64,000 nt of DNA from Suillus spraguei (taxonomy: Eukaryota > Basidiomycota > Agaricomycetes > Boletales > Suillaceae): NCBI GenBank assembly GCA_016800925.1, contig JABCPU010000038.1, forward strand, positions 62,001-126,000, given 5' to 3'. The notes under the pieces were generated by a model, which saw nothing but the letters and a program-made list of their open reading frames with translations, was not told where the DNA came from and made no database searches. Position 1 is the stretch's first letter, and the number at the start of each line of letters is the position of its first letter. This document shows, piece by piece, positions 4,689-64,000 of the stretch. The position numbers and the translations under genes are program-made.

Positions 4689-4900
4689 CAGTGGCTCAAA
4701 AAACTGTCCGCATGTTTTGACATTTTTCACTATCTATGATATTGTGTGAGAATGAACAAATTCCTCAAGGACATACTTATACCACATTGTAGTATGGCTT
4801 CAGGGCTTTTATTTGAGCCCTACACCGTGGGAATCGGCGGAGATATGGTGGAGATATAAGGCTTATAAAATGATGACTCATGTGGACAGTTTTTTGAGTG
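4689..4900 (+). repeat. Left TIR of the Tc1-like element
   Basis: About 212 bp, the inverted copy of 6094-6305. Its outer end carries CTCAAAAAACTGTCCGCATG and its inner end carries the inverse, CATGTGGACAGTTTTTTGAG, so each TIR is bounded by two inverted copies of one 20-bp motif. Confidence 0.88.
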
Positions 4901-5048
4901 TATATTAAAACTATATAAATCATTATTTATGACACCATAAAAATCATGCCACTATTATATAAATTATAAAGTGGTGTCATTATGTTATTTTATGACTATA
5001 TCTAACTATATAAACCAGAATATCTCATGTATCATAGTCATAATCACC

Positions 5049-6065
5049 ATGAAAGCCATCTCCTCTGCTCAAAGAGATAATATCCTCTCTCTGTCTTATG
5101 CTGGCCTCTCTGCTCGCCAAATTTCCTCTAGAACTGGAGTATGCAAGTCCACTGTGGCCAAGTTCATCAAAGAAAGCCACCCAGACAAGGAAAACTCTTG
5201 TGGAGGACGTCCATCCAAGCTTACCTCTACTGACAAAAGGGCTATTATCCAACATATCACTACAGGAAAGGCTGATAATGCTGTCCAAGCCACCCATTAT
5301 ATCAATTCCACCATCACTACCCCTGTCTCTACACAAACTGTGAGGAATGTTCTCAAGGCAGCTCATCTCAAGGCAGTAACAAAGAAGAAAAAGCCTCTTC
5401 TCTCCATCAAACATAGGCAGAGAAGACTAGCCTTTGCCTTAGCTCATCAACACTGGACTGTAGAGGACTGGAAGCGTGTTATATGGTCAGATGAGACCAA
5501 AATCAATAGGATTGGGTCAGATGGGAAGGTGTATGTATGGAAAAAGAAGGGAGATGGCCTAACAGACAGAGAGGTTAATGGGACTGTCAAGTTTGGAGGA
5601 GGTTCTTTAATGGTATGGGGCTGTATGGGATGGAATGGTGTGGGAATGCTTGCTGAGGTTGAGGGGAAGATGAATGCTGAGCAGTATGTGGACATTTTAA
5701 ATGACCACTTGCTGCCTAGCTTGGCAGAATCAGGGATTGATGAAGAAGATATCATTTTCCAACAGGATAATGATCCCAAGCACACATCCAGAAGAGCTAG
5801 GGAATGGTTTGAAGAACATAACATCAATGTTCTTGACTGGCCAGCACAGTCTCCTGATGTCAATGTCATTGAACATCTCTGGGGAACACTCAAGAAAAAG
5901 CTTCAAGCCTATGAAAACCCCCCTAAAGGAGTATGGGAGCTTTGGGAGAGAGTAGCAGTGGAATGGGGGAAGATCACAGCTGAGGATTGCCAGAAATTAA
6001 TTGAGAGTATGCCTAGAAGGATAGAGGCAGTAATTAAAGCCAAGGGAGGTCATACAAAATACTAG
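5049..6065 (+). CDS. Tc1-like DD34E transposase
   Basis: This protein would bind the TIRs and catalyse cut-and-paste movement in the nucleus. I start it at 5049 (338 residues), where the paired helix-turn-helix region begins at once (SAQRDNILSLSYAGLSARQI). An in-frame ATG 26 codons upstream gives only an unlikely leader. An AT-hook-like GRPSK lies near residue 54. The catalytic core is WSDETK (D1), FQQDNDPKHTSR (D2) and SPDVNVIEHLW (E). The spacing between the second D and the E is 34 residues, the Tc1 type. A GGGSLMVWGCM motif lies between D1 and D2, as expected. No stop or frameshift is visible and the length fits the family, so the product could be active. Confidence 0.92.
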   Translation: MKAISSAQRDNILSLSYAGLSARQISSRTGVCKSTVAKFIKESHPDKENSCGGRPSKLTSTDKRAIIQHITTGKADNAVQATHYINSTITTPVSTQTVRNVLKAAHLKAVTKKKKPLLSIKHRQRRLAFALAHQHWTVEDWKRVIWSDETKINRIGSDGKVYVWKKKGDGLTDREVNGTVKFGGGSLMVWGCMGWNGVGMLAEVEGKMNAEQYVDILNDHLLPSLAESGIDEEDIIFQQDNDPKHTSRRAREWFEEHNINVLDWPAQSPDVNVIEHLWGTLKKKLQAYENPPKGVWELWERVAVEWGKITAEDCQKLIESMPRRIEAVIKAKGGHTKY

Positions 6066-6093: not shown

Positions 6094-6305
6094 GAGTCAA
6101 AAAACTGTCCGCATGAGTCACCATTTTGTGAGCCTTGTATCTCCACCATATCTCCACCGATTCCCACGGTGTAGGGCTCAAATGAAAGCCCTGAAGCCAT
6201 ACTACAATGTGGTATAAGCATGTTTTTGAGGCATTTGTTTGTTCTCACACAATATTATAGATAGTGAAAAATGCCAAAACATGCGGACAGTTTTTTGAGC
6301 CACTG
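6094..6305 (-). repeat. Right TIR of the Tc1-like element
   Basis: Inverted partner of 4689-4900, with the same pair of inverted 20-bp motifs at its outer and inner ends. It begins 29 bp after the transposase stop. Confidence 0.88.
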
Positions 6306-22157: not shown

Positions 22158-22609
22158 GGCTTATTGCAGTTGAAGTAATATCATACTCAGTAGCCCATTA
22201 TATACTTCAAGTTATGTGCCAGCGAACGCGATGACCGTGAACGATGACACGTACTTGTAAGCTAACCACATCTATAATGTGTGCTTTGATCATAATTGAG
22301 CACACATCCCTTCACGCCTCAAAGTTCTTAAAGGGTCTAACCTGAGAATCGGCGCCTTATTCTCTTTTGTCCTCTGCGCTCATCCCCATTTGCACGTCGT
22401 TCGATGATTTTGTCCATTATCGGGAATCTTCGAGATCGATGGCGCAATATTAGTGGTAGTCAGAGTGAATGGAGCGATTCTGCGTGCGATTATGAGACGA
22501 TTCAAAATTCGATAATCGTGTGAAAATCGCTGCTTACTTTGAACTCCCCAAATTATTAATATTAATGTTTGACCGTCAAAGAAGTCACGGTATGGAAACC
22601 TAGACGTCA

Positions 22610-23689
22610 ATTGAGGCTTCCACTTCTCAGAACCTTCCTAATAAGGTGGTCGCTCCACAACGGATCACGAACTTGCGAGTGTTGACGGGTGAAGCCGGGC
22701 CTTCGTAGCGTTGTCATGGAGATCCTCCCCCACAGTGCTTCTTCCATAACGAAGCACTGTGGCCCGTGCGTCCCTCTTAAAGACGGGGTCTTCGAAGATT
22801 CTCGTCTGCCTCGTTTTCTCTTCTCAACCTCATCTTCCTGTGCGACGCGCATTCGATTTTTTTCGACCCACCCACCATCCCATCTTCATCCTAGCGTTGT
22901 TTTTGGTTGGGACTTGTGTCTCCTTCAGGCCTGAAGGCTGCTCACGTCCTAGATCAAAACGCGCTCAGAAGGTCTGTCTTTTGCTCTCGAATCCCGACTC
23001 TCAATTTTAGTCTTCAATCATTCTTTTCTCGGGATTCTCACTTCAAGCACAAATCCGACGCGTCTTGCGTCGGTCTGGCAAAACCAGACCTTCCCACACA
23101 AAAACCGAATTCTTAGCACTTCAACCTGCTGGATTCGTTCTTATCTTTATCGCATCTCCAGCGCAGAAAGTCACTACTTTAGCATTAGAGATTCATACTC
23201 CTTAACACATCTATTTGCTTAGCACTCGTGAGCTTGTCGTACGAAGATCACTCTCCTCGCTCCACACTTTTCAAAAACGCAATATACGAAGGTAAGTGCT
23301 TCCATTGGCCTCCAAACACCCTGTGCGACCCATGTAGATTTATTCCCGCTACCATAGAGGAAAGACGAGATTCCCGTCTCTAATCCTCTATGTCTGACCT
23401 TCAAGGTGGTGACAGTGTCTCATTGTCCTCGTTTTTTAATATCTGCTTATTTCCTTTTGTGTATTTAGAAACTTCATGTATACTTAGTGGTAATGTCGAT
23501 CATATTGAACCTACTAATGATGGTGAATTAGGATTACCCCAGTCTTCGTCCCTCGTCGAGGTAATTTTATTGTCTCGTAGACGTTCAGACTCAAACTTTA
23601 TCGTCCATGTCATCTTTTGCGGGCCGTGTCAATCAGGGTCACCATAAGTTTTTAACTTAGGAAGTCTCATCGAGGGAAAGGGTTAAAGC
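22610..23689 (+). repeat. Repeat module R, copy 1, gene-like part, rearranged
   Basis: Matches module R at 48.1 and 63.7 kb (minus strand). The left end gcttccacttctcagaacc lies at about 22616. It is followed by about 640 bp of unrelated sequence (about 22645-23282). The shared part then resumes at ggtaagtgcttccattggcc (about 23290). An internal deletion joins the tagatttattcccgctacc part to acgagattcccgtctctaatcc. The segment keeps a 3' splice-like end (tgtatttag at about 23468) and a following exon reading SGNVDHIEPTNDGELGL. That reading is conserved with one in-frame codon difference in copy 3, suggesting decayed coding sequence. I do not recognise the protein. Confidence 0.65.
22730..22762. 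other. Perfect 12-bp hairpin
   Basis: CCACAGTGCTTC (22730-22741) pairs with GAAGCACTGTGG (22751-22762) around a 9-nt loop. It lies in a segment that interrupts repeat module 1. Confidence 0.7.
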
Positions 23690-23985
23690 AGTCTGGCCAG
23701 TGTGATAACCACAGCGAAATCGCAATCTCTTTCTCTTGGACTGTGCAGGTTCGAAACCTGCCGATGACAAGATTTTTTTCTATCGGAACACACATTTATA
23801 TTTACTCATGGATGGTTTCTTTAAAAGTTCACCGCAACTGCTCTTAGCGAGGTGGAACTCTTGAGCTGTATAGGTTCGAAGCTGTCCTACGCCGAGGTTT
23901 TTTGCTATTGGAACACACCTTGGTATTCACTCATGGGTGGTTTCTTTGGAGGTTCACCGTAACTGGTCTTAGGCAAGTGGTTGGG
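23690..23985 (+). repeat. tRNA-like tandem array, copy 1 (two units plus a fragment)
   Basis: Unit 1 (about 23690-23778) has an A-box-like TGGCCAGTGTG, a B box GGTTCGAAACC inside GCAGGTTCGAAACCTGC, and a T-run at 23773. Unit 2 (about 23838-23903) has lost its anticodon arm but keeps the A-box region, GGTTCGAAG and a T-run. A third A-box region begins at about 23962. The period is about 145 bp. Confidence 0.75.
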
Positions 23986-38255: not shown

Positions 38256-41200
38256 TCAAGATTCGAGCGGAGTTCTTCAAGTTCTTTTCTGGGAGCCATT
38301 CGTTATCTCCCAATGAATATCCTTTCCAAGAAATGAGATAGCATCAGCGAGCGCCGGTTCCTTTGTGAGAAAGAATCGCTTCTATTTCATATTCTTCTTC
38401 TTCTTCGATGATGTCAGGTGGTGGTTCAGGGAAGTTTGGACTGTGTACATCTGTTTTGCTATAGGATGATAAGACAGAAGCGTGGAACGTGGGATGAATT
38501 TTCCACTGCGGAGGGAGTTTGAGTGTGAACGTGATGGGTGATAAGACATCGATGATCAGGAAAGGTCTGTATCGCTTTGGCGCAAGTTTCCTTGATGGGA
38601 GTTTGAGTCTAAGATTGGCAGCAGATAACCAAACCTTATCTCCGATCTTCCATGGAATGTACTTATCTCCTCGGGATCGTTCGGCCATTGTTTGCATTGC
38701 AATGTTATGACAGGCGATTGCTTCTTCTCTTGTCTTCTGCAGGGATCGTACTCGATCTTCTGCTGCGGGGACTGATGAATCAGGGATAAGGTGAGGGATA
38801 GTGCGTGGTTCGTATCCCATCATCAAATAAAAGGGTGATGCATTTCTTGCATCGTGTTTTTGGTGATTGTGGACAAATTCGGCGATTGGTAGGTGTTCTA
38901 TCCGATCTTCAGGATTGTTGCGGCAATAGATGCGTAGGTATGTTTCCAGTTCTTGATTAAGCCTTTCTGTTTGACCATCTGTCTGAGGGTGATAAGCTGT
39001 AGATGGAGCAATGACGTAATCGAGAAGTGGGCAAGCTCTTTAGAGAAGCGAGATAGGAATTGCGGACCTCGATCTGAAATGACTTTGTCATGGAGTCCAA
39101 ATTGACGGTAAACGTGTTTCAAGAATAGTTTAGCAACGCCTTCGGAAGTGATGGTTTTCAAACAAGGGATAATAATTACCCCCTTCGTAAGGCCATGGTC
39201 TACCACGACCATGACAAAGCCTCCAGAGACAGGGAGGTCAGTGATAAGATTAATGGAGATCTGGGAAAAGGGTCGAGTCGCAGAGGAGGGTATTGGGGCA
39301 AGCGGCGGTCGAACAGGATGTGTATCAGCTTTCATTTGCTGACAAAGGGCACAACCCTCAACGTATTTCCGAATATAGGAGCCCATAGCGGGCCACCAGG
39401 CTTCTCGTTTAACAAGTTCTTCAGTTTTGAATCTACCGGGATGTCCCGCGGTAGGATGATCGTGATACCTTGTCAGGATATCGGGACGATGTGCTGGTGG
39501 AATGTAGGCACGATTCTTAAAGTAGAAAACGTTCTCCTCAATTTTCCAGTCAGAGAGTGCAGACTTCATAGGGGGAAGGCACACGCCATCGAGGGCGTCA
39601 GATGCTGTTTTAAAGACAGGGTCGTCAAGGGGGTCAGAGGATGACAACACATCCTTCAGGTCGGTGTCAATAAGACGAACGAATAGAGCGTCAGGGAGAA
39701 GGGTCTGGTCCTCGTTATCATCTTTACCGGAGTCGTAGTCGGGTCGGCGAGATAGTGCATCAGGTATTGCTAATTTAGTACCTGCAACGTGATGCAGTTC
39801 AATGTCGTAAATGGACAGAATCAATTGCCAACGTGCTTGGCGACGGGTAAGCTTCTGTGCACTTCTAAAGTACAGAAGGTTCTTGTGGTCGGTGAATACC
39901 AGGACGGGGTGAGGGTTCCCTTCGAGATAATGACGCCATTCGTTCAATGCCCGGATTACGGCAAGAAGCTCCCGATCAAAGATCTGATAATTGCGTTCTG
40001 CGGGGTTCAAGGACTGTGAGAGATATGCACATGGGTGATAAACGCCATTTTCATCAGTCTGCAAGAGAACTCCGCCAGTTGCTACGAGCGAAGTGTCGGT
40101 AGCAATAGCAAATTGTCGGGAAGGATCAGGATTACGGAGTACTGGTTGAGATGTAAAGCATCATTTCAGTTCTTCGAAGGTGTCCATACATTCAGTTGAC
40201 CAGTCAAAGGCCTTATCTTTCTTTGTGAGGTCGATAAGAGGTCGGGCGACATCAGAATAGTGGGAAATGAACGTGCGGTAGAAGTTGCAAAAGCCGAGGA
40301 ATGACCGAACATCTTTTACAGATTTCGGGACTGGCCATTCGGAGATTCCCTTGGTCTTGGCGGTGTCCATAGCAACTTGTCCAGGGCGAATTATCATTCC
40401 GAGGTATTCCACTTCTTCTGCATCAAAGGTGCATTTCTCCGGTTTCAAGAACAGATGTTCTTTTCATATCTTCATCAAAACCCGTCTGGTTCGTTCACGA
40501 TGTTCTGCCATTGTTGTAGAGAAGATCAGGATATCGTCCATGTAGATAACCATCCATCCTTCGTTGATTTCCTGTTGAAAGGTGCGATTCATGTATGCTT
40601 GGAAAGTTGCTGGTGAATTGCAGAGGCCAAAGAACATGACGTTCAGTTCGAAGAGGCCGAATTCCGTAGTAAAAGCAGCTTTCCAGCGATCATCGGGATG
40701 GATGCGAATATTGTTATAACCAGACCGGATATCCATTTTCGTAAAGAACTGTGTGTTATGAAGGCGTGCAACAAGGGAGATAGGGAGTGGAAGCGGATAG
40801 GCGTTCTTGACTGTCCAATCATTGATGTAGCGATAATCTTGACAGGGTCGCAATTCTCCACTCTTCTTTCCCACAAAGAAGAAACCACTGGCTTGGGGTG
40901 ACTTCAATTCTGAGATAAAACCTTTCGCAACGTTTTCATCGATAAATGTTTTGACCGCAGCACGTTCTTTTTCCGATAGCGGGTAGACCTTAGATGTACG
41001 AGGGATGAAACCGGGTTTAGTATCAATCTGATGATCAATACCAGGGCGTTCGGGGGGTAGTTTATTTAATCTGTCTTTAGCAAAGACGTCTGCAAAGTCG
41101 TGCAAATAGTCCGGGACCAATTCTTCGAAGGATTTCTTTTTCTTTTCCTTCTCGTCCGTGGCGAATTCCTGGGCTTTGTTACTGTATTTTGGAGGAGGAA

Positions 41201-42810
41201 GGGAGATTGTGGAGTAGTTGGAAAGATGTTCGAGTCGGGAAGTTCCATCATGTGTAAGAGGCATGTCCATGGATACTTCTTCAATAATTCTCATGCTGAT
41301 TCCATCGGTATCATATTCCACAAGAAATTCTCCATCTCCAAGTTCATAGGAGGAAATTTCACGTACTTCTGGCGCATGCCAGACATCTTGCATTGTGTTG
41401 AATTGGTCATCATCCTCTGTTGGGATCAACGAGGGCACGGGTTCTTCTTTATCGGGGATTTCTTCAATTGAAGTTGAAGGAGTATCTTGAAGAGTTTTCG
41501 GAGGGACGTAGAATTTGGATAGTTTCGGTACATTGGTATCTCGTCCGGGGATCTCCTCTTCTGCTTTTCTTTTTCCATACTTCTGTTCTTCTATTGGCCG
41601 TTGTTCAATAGGTTCTTGTCCGACCCTATGCTCAGGTTCGGATTCATTCTTGCGCTTTTCTGCGCGAGGAATTGGTGATACTGCTCGCAGCAGTTGTACG
41701 CGAGGAGGGTCAATAGTACATGGCATTTGTACTTCCGGTTCAGGTTCTTTAGGAATAGGAATCGTGAGTGATCTCAGAAGCTGAGAGTGTTGCCATTTCT
41801 TAGGATGGTGACTGAAAAGCAGGGGTAATCCGTTCTCCTTCCGATTGCTGTCCAAATCGATTTCTATTTCGTCTGATTTCATTGTCCTAGGGAGGACTAG
41901 TGTTTCAGTGGCCCAATCTATACTTGGGTTCATTGCACGTAACCATGGAATCCCTAGAAGGATTTGATCTCTTCTTCCTAGTTTGGTGATATTGAACTTC
42001 CCATACATGGTTCGTTCATCGATTTTGACCACTAGCATGCAATAGTGCGTGATTGGTCCTCCTTTAATAAGAGTTCCATCTGCTGTAGTAACTCGAAATG
42101 GTGTTTTGAGTTTTTGTCGTGTGATTTGATGGAGTTTCACAAACTCTTCGGAGATGAATGTTCCTGCCGCTCCTGAATCAATGACGGCGGTGGTGTCGAC
42201 TGTTACAATCGTACGTGCCCCTATTCATTTTCTACTCATTTACCTTGTATATTACGTAATGTAACTCTGACTCATATGCTCAACGCATCTGTACTATAGT
42301 TGCCTTCCTTCTTTGGATATGCACTTACATTCTCACATCTCTCTTGGTCTGTGCGCACATATTGGCCTATTTAAGCACGGTGTACTTGTAGTAGATTCCT
42401 TACTTTAATCTTACTGGGTTTTACCTGGAATCTCCTTCGCTTAGGTCTCCAACCTAAGTCGTCTTGAATCGTCTCTAAGTCTAAGCACTCCTTAGCCTTA
42501 GTCTCTATTCTCGCAGAACCTCTCGGACTTGTCTTTGAGGCGAACCCTTGATCGTACTCGGAACGCGTTCCTTGTACTTTCACCTTGTCCTCTTCTGGAC
42601 ATTGTAAGAACTCCCAGCAGACCGACTGTGTCTTTTCACTGTCGCTGGTGACGCCACCCCAGTTCGTAACATCGACGGATTTCAAGCGAGTACGCGAGTG
42701 AAGGGTGATAGGGACACGAAGTTCTTTTCTTTCACCTACAGCACGTACAAGTCTTAGTAATACTTTGGGAGAAACATACGTCGAGTCTTTGTTTCTCCAA
42801 GTCAAAATCC
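38227..42810 (-). pseudogene. Pol of chromovirus copy 2 (PR-RT-RH-IN-chromodomain)
   Basis: The protease motif VIDSGAAGT lies at about 42160-42190, separated from its upstream part by the solo LTR. RT includes GELRPCQDYRYIND, FTKMDIRSGYNNIRI and VIYMDDILIF (YMDD at 40533-40544). RNase H includes FTDHKNLLYF (about 39870-39900). Integrase has the HHCC zinc site (HDHPTAGH and CALCQQM), with DRGPQFLS near 39060. A frameshift near 39030 separates this from YHPQTDGQTERLNQ, which holds the catalytic Glu. A chromodomain ends the protein (EYEIEAILSHKG, then [18 protein letters not shown], about 38390-38246). TGA stops lie at 40464, 40161 and 38344. The chromodomain places it among chromoviruses. Confidence 0.9.
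42201..42671 (+). repeat. Solo LTR, family A, inside chromovirus copy 2
   Basis: TGTTACAATC...GTTCGTAACA, 471 bp, flanked by tcgac at 42196-42200 and 42672-42676. The same site without an insertion is seen in copy 1 at 421-430. It is in the opposite orientation to its host element. Confidence 0.95.
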
Positions 42811-47823: not shown

Positions 47824-48082
47824 GATGAGGCTGAGGGCTTACGTTTGTTCAAAGTGCTCCTCTTTAAGAGTTCTATTATGTGACAAACCATGATTAAGCC
47901 CCAACCAAGCCTCAAGTTACCATAGCGACCACTGGCAGTGGTACGCGTAACGCAGGAACCCACATATGATGGTACACGTTTATGCTATGCGGAAAGGCTG
48001 CTACGCTGAAATTGCAGAATTGTGTGGGTGATCTCTCGTACGACGGACCATCACGTGAATCCTGCTACTACGCGATAGGGTC

Positions 48083-48648
48083 TTTTGTATGGAAAGCTAG
48101 ACCACCGTGTTCTACATACTTCCAAGCTTCCACTTCTCAGAACCCTCCTAGTAACTTGGTAAGTGCTTCCATTGGCCTCCGAACACCCTGTGCGACCATT
48201 CAAATGTGTCATGTAGATTTATTCCTGCTATCATAAGGGAGTGGGTTATATCATGTTTTACCACTGGGATCTCGTACTGCAAATCGGTCGACTTCCTGTG
48301 TCCGTTTCTTTTGACCTTGAATCGCATTCTTTTTCTTCTCTTCTTCGATTGCTCGTTCGCTCGGCCATTTGCGCCCAAGTTCGTGTCTCGCTGAAATCCC
48401 CATGCCCTCAACGATGCATTGCCGTGCGCTCACTACCGATGTCGAGTTCGAGGTCGCGTGTGGTCTCAATGTTGTGTTTGGGATGAACTGGACTGCTGCG
48501 TGGCCGCCGTTTTGTGGGAAGACGAGACTCCCGTCTCTAATCCTCTATGTCTGACCTTCAAGGTGGTGACAGTATCTCATTGTCCTCGTTTTTTAATATC
48601 TGCTAATTTCTTTCTGTGTTTCTAGAAACTTCATGTATACTTAGTGGT
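48083..48648 (+). repeat. Repeat module R, copy 2, gene-like part
   Basis: Shares long stretches with 63.1-63.8 kb (minus) and, with deletions, 22.6-23.7 kb. It begins at about gtatggaaagctagaccaccg. An exon-like end (TSQNPPS) is followed by a GTAAGTGC donor-like site at about 48160. A middle frame reads CRALTTDVEFEVACGLNVVF and MNWTAAW. A second intron-like segment ends in TTTCTAG at 48625. I do not recognise the protein. Compared with copies 1 and 3, about 120 bp are missing just before the tRNA-like array. Confidence 0.7.
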
Positions 48649-49165
48649 AGTAGCCTGGCCAGTTACTACAACGGAATCAAAATCCGTTTCACCTTGGACT
48701 ACGCAGGTTCGAAACCTGCTGAACTGCGAGTTTTTTTTATTGGAACACTTTGACATCCATTCATGGATGGTTTCTTTAAAAGTTCACCTAACTGGCCTTA
48801 GCCAGGTGGTTGCTACAACATAATCAAAACTGTTTCTCTTGGACTGTGCAGGTTTGAAACCTGCCGAGCACGAGGTTTTTTTCTATCGGAACACGCTTTG
48901 ATATTCGCTCATGGATGGTTTCTTTAAAAGTTCGCCGCAACTGGTCTGAGCCAGATGGTTGCCACAACAGAATCAAAATTTGTTTCTCTTGGACTATGTA
49001 GGATCGAAACCTGCCGATGACAACCATTTTTTTTCTATCAGAACACACATTGACATTCACTGATGGATGGTTTCCTCAGAGGTTCATCTTGACTGGTCTT
49101 CGCACCTGTGCAAATTGTTGTTGCAACATTGATATTTACTCCATGGCGAGTCGTGCCTTCGGATA
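48649..49165 (+). repeat. tRNA-like tandem array, copy 2 (three units plus a fragment)
   Basis: Units at about 48649-48739, 48790-48882 and 48939-49033, period about 148 bp, then a fragment at 49091-49117. Each full unit has a TGGCCTTAGCCAGGTGG-like A-box region, a 7-nt loop ATCAAAA closed by a 4-5 bp stem, an extra arm, GCAGGTTYGAAACCTGC (the third has GTAGGATCGAAACCTGC) and 7-8 T residues. The anticodon position reads CAA, as in tRNA-Leu. A matching acceptor stem is not visible, so they are tRNA-like rather than functional tRNA genes. The shared tail ends near gccttcgga (49163). Confidence 0.8.
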
Positions 49166-49639
49166 TGCGTTCAAAACACTGATTACATTGTGTCATGACT
49201 TGTGAGGCTGCCGCAGGGTGTATATAGTTTCTCTTCGGGCTTAATCGATGCATATTAGACGAATTGATGTCTGTGGACGTGTCTGCAATATCAGGCGCTG
49301 ATCTGTGAACCATTGCAGAGTATTTGGAATGCACTCGCGATCAAGAAGAACATTACAGGCAGGGAAATTTATTGGTATTTCAAACATTCTTTGCCATCGG
49401 GGCACATGCGAGGGTGTGTTTAAATTATCGCAGTCGCTGTTCACCAAGGTGGAACGTATGCATATGTCCAAACCAAATCTTCTCTGGAAGCCATTGCGTC
49501 TCGACATGGTTTATACTTTGCAGGCACAAATCAGTACTATGTTTTTTCATCGTCTGTTTTCACAAGATATATTTCTTGCAGCCGAAGGTCCTGCACATGC
49601 ATTATGACTGAAGGTCAATAAAATCATTTTTCGAACAGT

Positions 49640-49690
49640 CGAGGAAGGTTCTGAGAAGTAGAAGCCTTGTGGTCTGGCTTTCCATACTTT
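49640..49690 (-). repeat. Short fragment of module R
   Basis: Minus strand gtatggaaagccagaccac followed by cttctcagaaccttcct matches the start of the module R exon. It lies just downstream of a DUF6533 gene. Confidence 0.6.
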
Positions 49691-49807
49691 TGTGTCTTTG
49701 TCCCACGAAATAAATTATGCATAAGTAAGTACCACGATACAAAAATTAATCGTCCTGTTCCCTGTAGAGTACCCGACAAGTGTAGATGACAGCAAACATT
49801 TCCCATG

Positions 49808-60730: not shown

Positions 60731-62310
60731 ATTGATAGAGAATGCGGGTGCGGGTGAGAAGGGAGCGCCGATATCACCATCCAGTGCTTGGATCACGAAA
60801 ATTGTGGAAGCCAGGATCACCGCACTCTATTTATCAGCCTTCTTGTGCAGGACTTCGGAAACCTCAGAGACGCAAATACTTAAAAGACACACTGGGGTAA
60901 ATTAATGCTCAATGCCACCCTGCTGTCAGTTACAAGTGTCAAGTACTGTAGTCTAGTGCTTATGGGGACATGACGTGAGTTACTTTTGCAAGCACTTACA
61001 TAAGGTGAGCTAAATATATAACGTAAAATTTACCCACTTCCGTATCTTATAAGTATGCCATGGGCTTGTGCCGGGCGCGCGCCGCGCACTGATCTGCGGC
61101 CAGCTGCACACATGGTGATAACTATCATCACCATCTGCAGCTGACCTTCACTACAGTCTACAAAGCAACGAAACCTTCGTCGTACAAGACATTACAATGT
61201 TGTCAAAGGTACGTTGTATTCATCCGAGTCAGCAGATGCGGCAACCTGAGCCCCACTTAGTTTCTGCAGCCCTGGCACTTTGGCGAGTTCACCTTTTCTT
61301 CGTCTCCGTCGAAAAAAATGGTTTTTAAATCATATGATGATGATCCATCTGGGCACCGCCTGGGTCGTTGTATAAGACGGCAAGCTTTGTCGAAGGGCTG
61401 CATCACGCTCAGGTCTTTATGGTTAGATTAATTTTGCATCGCTTTCATTTCAAGGGGTGCATATTGGCAGCTGAATAGCATGGGTGAGCTACTCTCTCAA
61501 CTCGTTCTATTCTGATGACATGCCAACAGCCTTTGGTCCATATATGGGCCGCCACAATCAAGAGCCCCAGCATCCAGACGACGTCGCTGAGGCTCGAGTC
61601 TTGAATCAAATTTTACAAAATCAGCCTGTGCCATGTGAAAAACAACAAATCATTCCTCATGCGGTCATATCGCCCCGCCAGGGTCTCTCTCGCTCATAGT
61701 TAGTTTGCAACTTATGGTGGACGATAGGTTACGGTTCGATTTGCCGATTTGCCGCGACGTATTTTGAAGTCCGATCAATGTTTGTTTTAATTTCAAGTTG
61801 AATATAATTTTGTGTCACAAAAAGTCACGAGTGTGGTTACTACTACATATCGCCATTGCCAATCCCCGACCCCGGAGCTCCGTGTCTTGAGCTGCATAGT
61901 GATGAATTCCGGCTTCAAAGGTTTGTGCATAAGACATAAGTATCTTAGACGGGGGTCACACGGTATACAATCTCGCTGTCAGTTCGGTTACGAAAGGGAA
62001 GCAGCGTGAGCACGTTATTAACACTTCCTACAGACAAAGAATTGTGAAGCTCAGAGCCTGCAGGCCTTGCGATTTGACTGAGAACCTATCAATGTATGAA
62101 CCCCTTGAAGCTGCTCAGGAATACACGAAGAAACAACCAACAGAGGCTGAGTTTGAAGTTTGCGAGTCAGTTCATAGATATCCAAGGCAGTGTAACGACA
62201 ATGAAGCTTCACCGGCTACGCGATCTACTGCAATCAAGGTAGTGAGGGGACTCAGAGGAGGGGGTTTACACAGAGCACAATATAATTAGTTTCAAACGTG
62301 TCCGAAGGCA
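60731..62310. other. No gene recognised with confidence
   Basis: Frames at 61484-61699 and 62044-62289 (both +) lack known features. A GC-rich self-complementary patch (gggcgcgcgccgcgc) lies at about 61071. The region is not shared with other parts of the window. Confidence 0.4.
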
Positions 62311-62314
62311 CGAC

Positions 62315-63095
62315 TCGCCATGGAGTAAATATCAATGTTACATCAACATTTTGCACAGGGGTTAAGATGGACCTCTAAGGAAACCATCCATGAGTCAAGG
62401 TGTGTTCCGATAAAAAAAATGCTGTCATCAGCAGGTTTTGAACCTACACTGGAAAGAGAAACAGATTTTGATTCTGTTGTGGTAACCATCAGGCTAAGAC
62501 TAGTTACAACGAACTGCCAAAGAAACCATCATGGGTGAATATCAAGGTGTGTTCCGATAGAAAAAACCTTGTCGTCGGCAGGTTTCGAATCTGCACAGTC
62601 CAAGAGAAACAGATTTTGATTGTGTCGTGGCAACCACCAGGCTAACACCAGCTACGGTGAACTTTCAAAGAAAACGACCACGAGAGAACATCAAAGTGGG
62701 TTCTGATAGAAAAAACCTCGTCATCGGCAGGTTTTGAACCCGCACGGTTCAAGATGAACAGATTTTGATTCTGTTGTGGCAACCGCCTAGCTAAGACCAG
62801 TTACGATGAACTTCTGAAGAAGCCATCCATGAGTGAATGTCAAGGTGTGTTTCAATAGAAAAAAACCTTGTCGTCGCCAGGTTTCAAACCTGCACAGTCC
62901 AAGAGAAACAGATTTTGATTCTGTTGTGGCAACACCTGACTGAGACCAGTTGAGGTGAACTTCTGAAGAAACCGTCCATGAATGAATGTCAAAGTGCGTT
63001 CTGATAGAAAAAAACTGTAGTTCAGCAGGTTTCGAACCTGCGTAGTCCAAGAGAAACAGATTTCAATTCTGTTGTAGTAACCAGGCTAAAGTCTT
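62315..63095 (-). repeat. tRNA-like tandem array, copy 3 (five units plus a fragment)
   Basis: On the minus strand five units lie at about 63094-63011, 62961-62862, 62812-62711, 62662-62561 and 62513-62411, period about 150 bp, each ending in 6-8 T residues. The B box reads GCAGGTTCGAAACCTGC or close variants. Four units have the CAA-type loop ATCAAAA. The first (63058-63072) has ATTGAAA, which would read UGA. The tail (62390-62315) is shared with copy 2 and ends at the same place, GCCTTCGGA. Confidence 0.82.
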
Positions 63096-63790
63096 TAACT
63101 TTCACTTGACGACTCATCCGAAGTTGAAAGCCTATGGGGCCCCTGATTGACACTGCCCGCTAAGATAATTCTAATTCACCATCATTAGCAGCAAGTTCAA
63201 TGTGATTGACATTACCACTAAGTATACACGGAGTTTCTGTAAACCCAGAAAGAAATGAGCAGATACTAGAAAATGGGGACAGTGAAACACTGTCACCACC
63301 TTGAAGGCCAGACATGGAGGATTGGAGACGGGAGTCTCATCTTCCCACAAAACGGTGGTCACGCAGCAATGCAGTTCATCCCTAACATAACATCGAGACC
63401 TCACGCGACCTCGAACTCAACATCGGTAGTGAGAGCACGGCAATAAATCACTGAGGCCATGGGGATTTCAGCGAAACGCGAACTTGGGCCCAAATGGCTG
63501 AGCGAACGAGCAATCGAAGAAGACGAGAGAAGAATACCATTCAAGGACAAGAGCAACAGACGCAGGAAGACAATCGATTTGAATGATGTCCCATAAAACA
63601 CGATATAACCCACTCCCTTATGGTAGCGGGAATAAATCTACATGACACATTAGCACAGGGTGTTCGGAAACCAATGCAAGCACTTACCTTACTAGGAAGG
63701 TTCTGAGAAGTGGAAGCCTTGGAAGTAGAGCACGGTGGTCTGGCTTTCCATAGAGCAACAGTCTTCGTACGAATCTCTGCTCTCTTCTGC
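63096..63790 (-). repeat. Repeat module R, copy 3, gene-like part
   Basis: The most complete copy of R. On the minus strand an exon-like part reads CVQKRAEIRTKTVALWKARPP and ends TSQNLPS at a GTAAGTGC donor-like site (about 63690). The middle region matches 48.2-48.6 kb, and the final exon reads SGNVNHIELAANDGELEL (about 63170-63220). Both intron-like borders are kept. I do not recognise the protein. Confidence 0.7.
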
Positions 63791-64000
63791 ACACAACGGG
63801 GGCAACAAGGGTCAGTACAAATACGGACAGAGTTTGCAAGCCGTCGTGATAATATTGATCGTCGTAATGAGACCATACATGATTGTCATGCTGTCTCCAA
63901 GCCATATGGGATGCGGCAGAAGGAGAAAAGACAGTGGGAATATACTTCAGGCTAGACAGACCGGTCGAAATGTCTGTTAAGAATTATACCAACTGTCGAT
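63791..64000. other. Sequence upstream of module R copy 3
   Basis: Short frames only, cut by the window edge. It may be the 5' part of the source gene of module R, because the frame with the Cys-rich CCPRC motif begins here. Confidence 0.3.

Follow-up and report, generated by a model that had tools for sequence, protein, structure and literature searches.

What are the short tandem repeats with tRNA-like features that recur in this stretch of Suillus spraguei DNA, and by what means were they multiplied in the genome? The window, by which we mean the whole 64,000-nucleotide stretch that was analysed, is C569:62001-126000 of an 86.2-Mb assembly in 1,256 contigs. A preliminary description of it had reported three modules with units of about 150 bp in 2, 3 and 5 copies, and TRF and a count of the units bear this out. 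Five direct repeats with a unit of about 149 bp lie at 62.4-63.1 kb (TRF: period 149, 4.6 copies, 62395-63083), three units at 48.65-49.04 kb (TRF: period 152, 2.8 copies, 48662-49074) and two at 23.69-23.91 kb. The array at 62 kb is on the minus strand and those at 48 and 23 kb are on the plus strand, and the plan of the unit is common to all three: a tRNA-like part, then an oligo-T run, then a spacer of about 55-60 bp. Among other arrays in the fetched loci, that of L016 has six units including a fragment and that of L035 has seven, and the sizes seen range from 2 to 7 units. The whole-genome search for the unit that had been suggested at the outset found a 29-base core of the unit 1,148 times with as many as three mismatches allowed, and the control 0 times. 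This is at least the number present; since the core pattern recovers 163 of the 235 units in the 47 copies of the element described below, the true genome-wide number is probably higher. Other repeats share the window. A Tc1/mariner-type transposase frame at 4941-6065 (374 amino acids, no stop, closest public protein 92% identical) is flanked by inverted repeats of 209 bp that are 93% complementary (4689-4897 and 6097-6305), and a retrotransposon frame with RVT_1 and RVP_2 lies at 40464-42224 and 42.0-44.3 kb, with further copies of this repeat at about 0-2, 7, 27 and 36 kb. The array units of the window are:

63009..63100, minus strand: unit u0, loop ATTGAAA, tRNA-Ser-derived; the same-position unit of copy L014 was scored against tRNAs
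62860..62952, minus strand: unit u1, tRNA-Ser-derived; same-position unit of copy L014 scored against tRNAs
62711..62803, minus strand: unit u2, tRNA-Ser-derived; same-position unit of copy L014 scored against tRNAs
62562..62654, minus strand: unit u3, tRNA-Ser-derived; same-position unit of copy L014 scored against tRNAs
62413..62505, minus strand: unit u4, tRNA-Ser-derived; the u4 position is outside the set scored against tRNAs
48650..48740, plus strand: first of the three 48-kb units, tRNA-Ser-derived, scored against tRNAs
48795..48882, plus strand: second of the three, tRNA-Ser-derived, scored against tRNAs
48945..49035, plus strand: third of the three, tRNA-Ser-derived, scored against tRNAs
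23690-23778 and 23840-23905, plus strand: the two units of the 23-kb module, kin of the other units by sequence, outside the tRNA scoring

When ten units from four arrays were compared with 17 tRNA loci, the best score was always that with the tRNA-Ser(AGA) of this genome, at 51-82, whereas shuffled sequences gave means of 20-22 and maxima of 27-32. The two Leu-like tRNAs scored 14-27 against the same ten units, which is the level of the shuffles. Of the term tRNA-Leu-like that had been given to the units, the tRNA derivation therefore stands and the leucine part does not; a tRNA-Leu origin was rejected on these scores among the 17 fetched loci, which contained no tRNA-Leu(CAA) gene and in which the Ser(AGA) names are from ARAGORN and the Leu labels were assigned by eye from the sequences. 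CAA does occupy the anticodon position in most aligned units, in the majority within a seven-base loop, and unit u0 of the window has TGA there. In 17 units, 98% of the cells of the anticodon helix, 95% of those of the T helix and 50% of those of the acceptor stem were paired. The named structure as a whole was paired in 78% of cells compared with 25-48% when it was slid, and the acceptor stem paired no better than its slid versions (0.52 versus 0.16-0.67). What the units retain is the anticodon arm, the T arm with its B box and the oligo-T stop, and what they have lost is the acceptor stem. Comparison of the flanks of three tRNA-Ser(AGA) genes with the spacer gave no significant match (best p 0.11). 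Nine JGI proteins match a frame across the units with E values of 2.6e-19 to 4.4e-3, and all six of these that were inspected by eye have at least two unit-like repeats; the nine may come from the same or related fungi.

The limits first set for the module at 62 kb, 62315-63790, cut through a larger element at 61713-64563 that is bounded by terminal inverted repeats (TIRs) and target-site duplications (TSDs). We label it family A, and its parts are:

61707..61712: left TSD, GCAACT, found by TSD comparison; the right copy follows 64563, beyond the window
61713..64000, on to 64563 beyond the window (locus L009 1714-4564): TIR element of family A, 2,851 bp, delimited by TIRs and copy borders
61713..61786, plus strand: left 74-bp TIR, TATGGTGGACGATAGG..., 90.5% to the right TIR (64490-64563)
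62276..63752, minus strand: homologous core that corresponds to the left end, the array and a portion of the right side of the 48-kb element, by sequence comparison
63694..63752, minus strand: internal copy of a second TIR type (TATGGAAAGCCAGACCACCGTG...), by sequence comparison

The 74-bp TIRs of family A have the termini TATGG..CCATA, and the first 33 bases of this TIR (TIR1) have 107 matches in the genome at up to three mismatches and 0 for the reversed-pattern control. A search with the array stretch, in which all 40 scored places matched out of 680 candidates, gave 40 copies, the window copy included, and TIR pairs gave 7 more; these 47 copies have the common borders 61713 and 64563 in window coordinates. 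Both TIR1 were recognisable in 17 copies, and the 6-bp TSD was exact in 13 of them, had one mismatch in 1 and had 3-5 mismatches in 3, compared with 0 of 561 control offsets; with L009 and L010 being near-identical duplicates, the exact TSD sites that are independent number 12. No transposase was found in the family A element, which has 16 stop-to-stop frames of at least 60 amino acids, the longest of them (163 amino acids) running out of the element, and three element frames had no match in Pfam. In the sense direction of the array one frame was open in most copies in 7 of 19 blocks of 150 bp, no frame was open in most copies past two adjacent blocks, and no codon position was consistently more variable. 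With frames so short-lived, no codon signal and no Pfam match for the three frames, coding by the part of the module that had been called gene-like is unsupported. One frame of the flanking part has two protein relatives, one 93% identical and the other, in Suillus decipiens (Boletales), 49% identical, and since the latter match takes in translated TIR2, the second TIR type (a reading by eye), the frame looks like a spurious one over the same element type. CpG sites in family A are more variable than the rest, with a majority share of 0.931 versus 0.976 elsewhere, mostly through C-to-T and G-to-A changes, which is decay of the methylation type.

The arrays at 48 and 23 kb also lie within elements. 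The element at 48 kb, which we label family B, has TIRs that differ from those of family A (TATGGAAAGC..), and that at 23 kb is a damaged relative, the right end of which was searched for and not found:

48082..48087 and 49687-49692: left and right TSD of family B, CTTTTG, matching exactly
48088..49686, plus strand: second TIR element, family B, 1,599 bp, delimited by TIR arms and the exact 6-bp TSD
22591..23983, plus strand: damaged relative with its left end TATGGAAACCTAGAC at 22591 and two units inside

The start of TIR2 has 326 matches in the genome at up to one mismatch, some of which fall on the copy inside family A, and the reversed-pattern control has 0. Exact 6-bp TSDs were found in three TIR2-type elements among ten pairings, and the other seven, several of which are chance or internal partners, had 3-5 mismatches. 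One TIR2-type element, L016 134-4516, has the TSD GTTTGG and a family A copy nested within it, and a TIR2-like element, L023 4484-5829, has the exact TSD CGGAAC and is itself nested in a family A copy. The L023 element has an alpha-kinase fragment (Pfam E 4.9e-7) and no detected unit, and past its first 25 bases no similarity to family A, family B or the window was detectable; TIR2-like ends together with this fragment show that such ends do carry host DNA. Families A and B nest in each other. Family A copies are inserted in family B-type elements at L035:1542-6001 and L016:134-4516, and at L072 a family A copy is inserted in the spacer of another array, with the duplication ATATTC. C1008:16000-22500 has a second version of this region of the window, with the 48-kb element, at about 99% identity; it is probably the alternative haplotype or was duplicated recently. 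The internal left TIR2 and the homology to family B over 62276-63752 make family A itself look like a composite that would have been built around a truncated B-type element.

The history of the array can be read from the copies. All 47 family A copies have five units, although 40 of these were found via the array stretch so that copies without an array would be missed. Units at the same position in different copies are 94% alike and those at different positions 78%, and with 3 of the 235 units left out for shortness, 231 of the remaining 232 have as their closest relative in any other copy the unit at the same position; in L040 and L072 one unit each took its best label from a unit at a different position. 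Five units in all of these copies and this positional orthology imply that the array formed before the family spread.

The explanation we favour, to which we give a probability of about 0.8, is that non-autonomous DNA transposons of the IS3EU type carry the arrays as cargo, a piece with tRNA-Ser(AGA) having been captured, duplicated, decayed and spread within a composite. It rests on the 74-bp TIRs and 6-bp TSDs around the whole element, the five units in 47 of 47 copies, the positional orthology, the tRNA-Ser(AGA) scores, the host DNA carried by the L023 element and the nearly flat conservation among recent copies. Against it speak the three of 17 copies with no matching TSD (3-5 mismatches), the lack of an IS3EU transposase with these TIRs among the sequences read, the tRNA-Ser(AGA) flanks that did not match the spacer, and the better preserved arms and T-run of older paralogous units described below. 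A DNA piece with a tRNA-Ser(AGA) gene would have come to lie inside an element, presumably by capture, and would have been duplicated in tandem, perhaps by unequal exchange, into the several units that are now observed as repeats. The units would then have decayed to the state in which they are found, with the acceptor stem lost and the anticodon changed. A transposase supplied in trans would act on the observed TATGG..CCATA ends and make the observed 6-bp duplications. An element of the small array-bearing kind, in truncated form, may have ended up as the central part of one with different TIRs, as the internal TIR and the shared core suggest, and this composite would then have spread as one unit with five repeats, as is seen in the copies read. 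The array is now most likely a passenger; B boxes and terminators that could recruit TFIIIC and Pol III persist in some units. We take the units to be decayed tRNA genes, carried by DNA transposons, of which some are perhaps still bound by TFIIIC. In their ends and duplications, with 6-bp TSDs and 74-bp TIRs with TATGG..CCATA ends, the elements fit IS3EU. The profile PF24764, a putative one for the IS3-like DDE transposase of an autonomous partner, has 16 matches in 8 contigs, and none lies in a TIR pair among the matches listed (100 of 107 for TIR1 and 100 of 326 for TIR2). Two candidate intervals for full-length elements are bounded by inverted TIR2 starts, C302:24987-30932 (5.95 kb) and C292:114104-120025 (5.92 kb), and none of the Tet_JBP matches listed, at least 150 from 197 candidates, lies inside these two pairs. 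Most of the Tet_JBP dioxygenase frames are about 181 amino acids long and many have identical scores, and the set looks like a large recent expansion. Together with the retrotransposon frame and the Tc1-like transposase of the window, these matches suggest an Agaricomycete. Host gene fragments between TIRs and TSDs, as in Pack-type elements, are present in the form of the tRNA-Ser-like units and the alpha-kinase fragment of the sister element.

It could be that the array does more than travel, and serves the transposon: TFIIIC and Pol III at several B boxes would keep chromatin open or block silencing, and the ends would stay accessible to the transposase. We consider this unlikely, though several observations point that way. 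The consensus sequences used were GWTCRANNC for the B box and TRGYNNARNGG for the A box, and the signals were counted on those 178 of the 235 units in the 47 copies that were found by an anticodon-arm pattern. The B box was exact in 125 of the 178 units and had one mismatch in 53, and an oligo-T run of at least five was present in 173. The A box was exact in 3, had one mismatch in 115 and two or three in 60, and for the A box by itself the control is weak, as 25% of control positions reach two mismatches or fewer. That the units have Pol III-type signals, as had been noted at the outset, is borne out. An exact B box, an A box with up to two mismatches and T5 occur jointly in 89 of 178 units versus 0.08% of the 1,249 positions that served as controls within these elements, and at least one such unit survives in 42 of the 47 copies. 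A use for the transposon is also favoured by the occurrence of arrays with at least two TIR types and by the pairing of the anticodon and T helices and of the whole structure given above. Among 15 older paralogous units (7 of 22 were dropped as truncated or having another spacer), the anticodon arm, T arm and T-run are at 0.90 versus 0.80 for the spacer (column-permutation p 0.003), and the tRNA part as a whole is weakly better than the spacer (p 0.08). A pure passenger does not predict this pattern, and recent capture or gene conversion could cause the same. On the other side, the D arm, where the A box lies, is at 0.77 between the old units and so below the spacer (the 3' acceptor side is at 0.71 and the 5' acceptor side at 0.92), covariation in 17 units was not above that of shuffles, and the TIR2-like element of L023 has an exact duplication and no detected unit. 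Conservation among the 47 recent copies, outside CpG, is in raw values nearly flat, at 0.977 for the T arm, 0.979 for the T-run, 0.980 for the anticodon arm, 0.973 for the spacer and 0.976 for the element, which favours a passenger. That there is a class of DNA transposons that would recruit TFIIIC and Pol III through an internal tRNA-derived promoter array and would profit from it by open chromatin or a silencing barrier, a cut-and-paste counterpart of the Pol III-promoted TRIMs, is, on sequence evidence, slightly less likely still.

tRNA-derived SINEs have a tRNA origin, A and B boxes and a high copy number, and the preliminary description had named a tandem SINE-like element as one possibility. 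The tRNA origin, the B box and the T-run are shared, but the unit itself was not seen to be mobile in the copies read. That each 150-bp unit retroposes alone and that arrays arise by repeated insertion is very improbable: all 47 copies have five units in positional orthology and the duplications flank the whole TIR element, which is the mobile unit that is seen, and no tRNA-headed unit with TSDs of its own was found in these copies. The SINE reading is rejected for the 47 copies; elsewhere among the 1,148 core matches, of which 100 were listed, single units outside arrays may exist.

That the units are functional tRNA or tRNA-like RNA genes (tRNA-Leu CAA) is scarcely credible in spite of the seven-base loop with CAA and of RNAalifold, which gave D-, anticodon- and T-arm helices in 17 units with a double change in 2 of 14 pairs, for the acceptor stem is at the level of its slid versions and in folding four units are hardly more stable than their shuffled versions (z -0.4 to -0.9), whereas z is -2.4 and -2.9 for two genuine tRNA-Ser genes. 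The tRNA gene scan proposed at the outset gave nothing in the window, ARAGORN finding 0 tRNAs and Rfam 0 matches above cut-off, and a cloverleaf with a paired acceptor stem was not recovered. At a permissive Rfam threshold the one match of tRNA type was to tRNA-Sec (19 bits, E 1.3); a miRNA at E 0.12 and a snoRNA at E 0.7 also appeared. None of the three reached the cut-off, and they were taken as chance.

If the arrays are transposon cargo, as we favour, hitchhiking in DNA transposons would be a route other than retroposition by which derivatives of tRNA genes reach high copy number, and annotators of such fungi should bear in mind that tRNA-like arrays and 'SINEs' may ride in transposons as cargo. 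Were any unit still to bind TFIIIC, every insertion would add several binding sites for Pol III factors, and it could be tested directly whether transposons make use of these against silencing. Judged by titles and the openings of abstracts in the open-access literature, no report of a tandem array of tRNA-derived units within a DNA transposon was found. Already known are tandem repeats inside MITEs and tandem tRNA-related SINE parts (PMC9659126) and tRNA promoters in LTR miniatures (PMC10886601). The last are Helenus/TRIMp3, miniature LTR elements whose Pol III promoter is tRNA-like and which are found in Agaricomycetes too, with tandem arrays mentioned for one zebrafish family (PMC10886601). 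Like the units here they are tRNA-derived, have kept promoter boxes, have lost the tRNA structure and are mobilised by a machinery different from the one that SINEs use; Helenus has direct LTRs, 5-bp TSDs in fungi and its tRNA-like part in the LTR, whereas here the ends are inverted repeats, the TSDs are of 6 bp and the array is internal. Hy/Pol III of Hydromantes and Satellite 1 of Xenopus laevis, both tandem repeats that stem from tRNA-related portions of SINEs (PMC9659126), consist of tandem tRNA-derived units as here, but they are listed as SINE-like in origin and class I, whereas here the units are in TIR transposons. Internal tandem repeats also occur in MITEs and further class II elements, for example in miDNA4 of Xenopus tropicalis (PMC9659126), where the repeat likewise lies within a TIR element that is non-autonomous; that repeat becomes satellite DNA, whereas here the unit is a derivative of a tRNA gene and the arrays seen have 2-7 units. 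Pack-TYPE transposons (PMC8903248) are, like the elements here, non-autonomous DNA transposons with pieces of host genes, described there for plants and coding DNA and found here with a tRNA gene in a fungus. Complete IS3EU elements have TA..TA termini and usually 6-bp TSDs (PMC10045372), and those of fungi have 6-bp TSDs, TIRs of more than 30 bp and the termini TAYGG..CCRTA (PMC12730594). The elements of this study share these last three features, and they differ in having no transposase or TET gene and in carrying a tandem tRNA-Ser-derived array, a cargo that the parts of PMC12730594 at hand do not mention.
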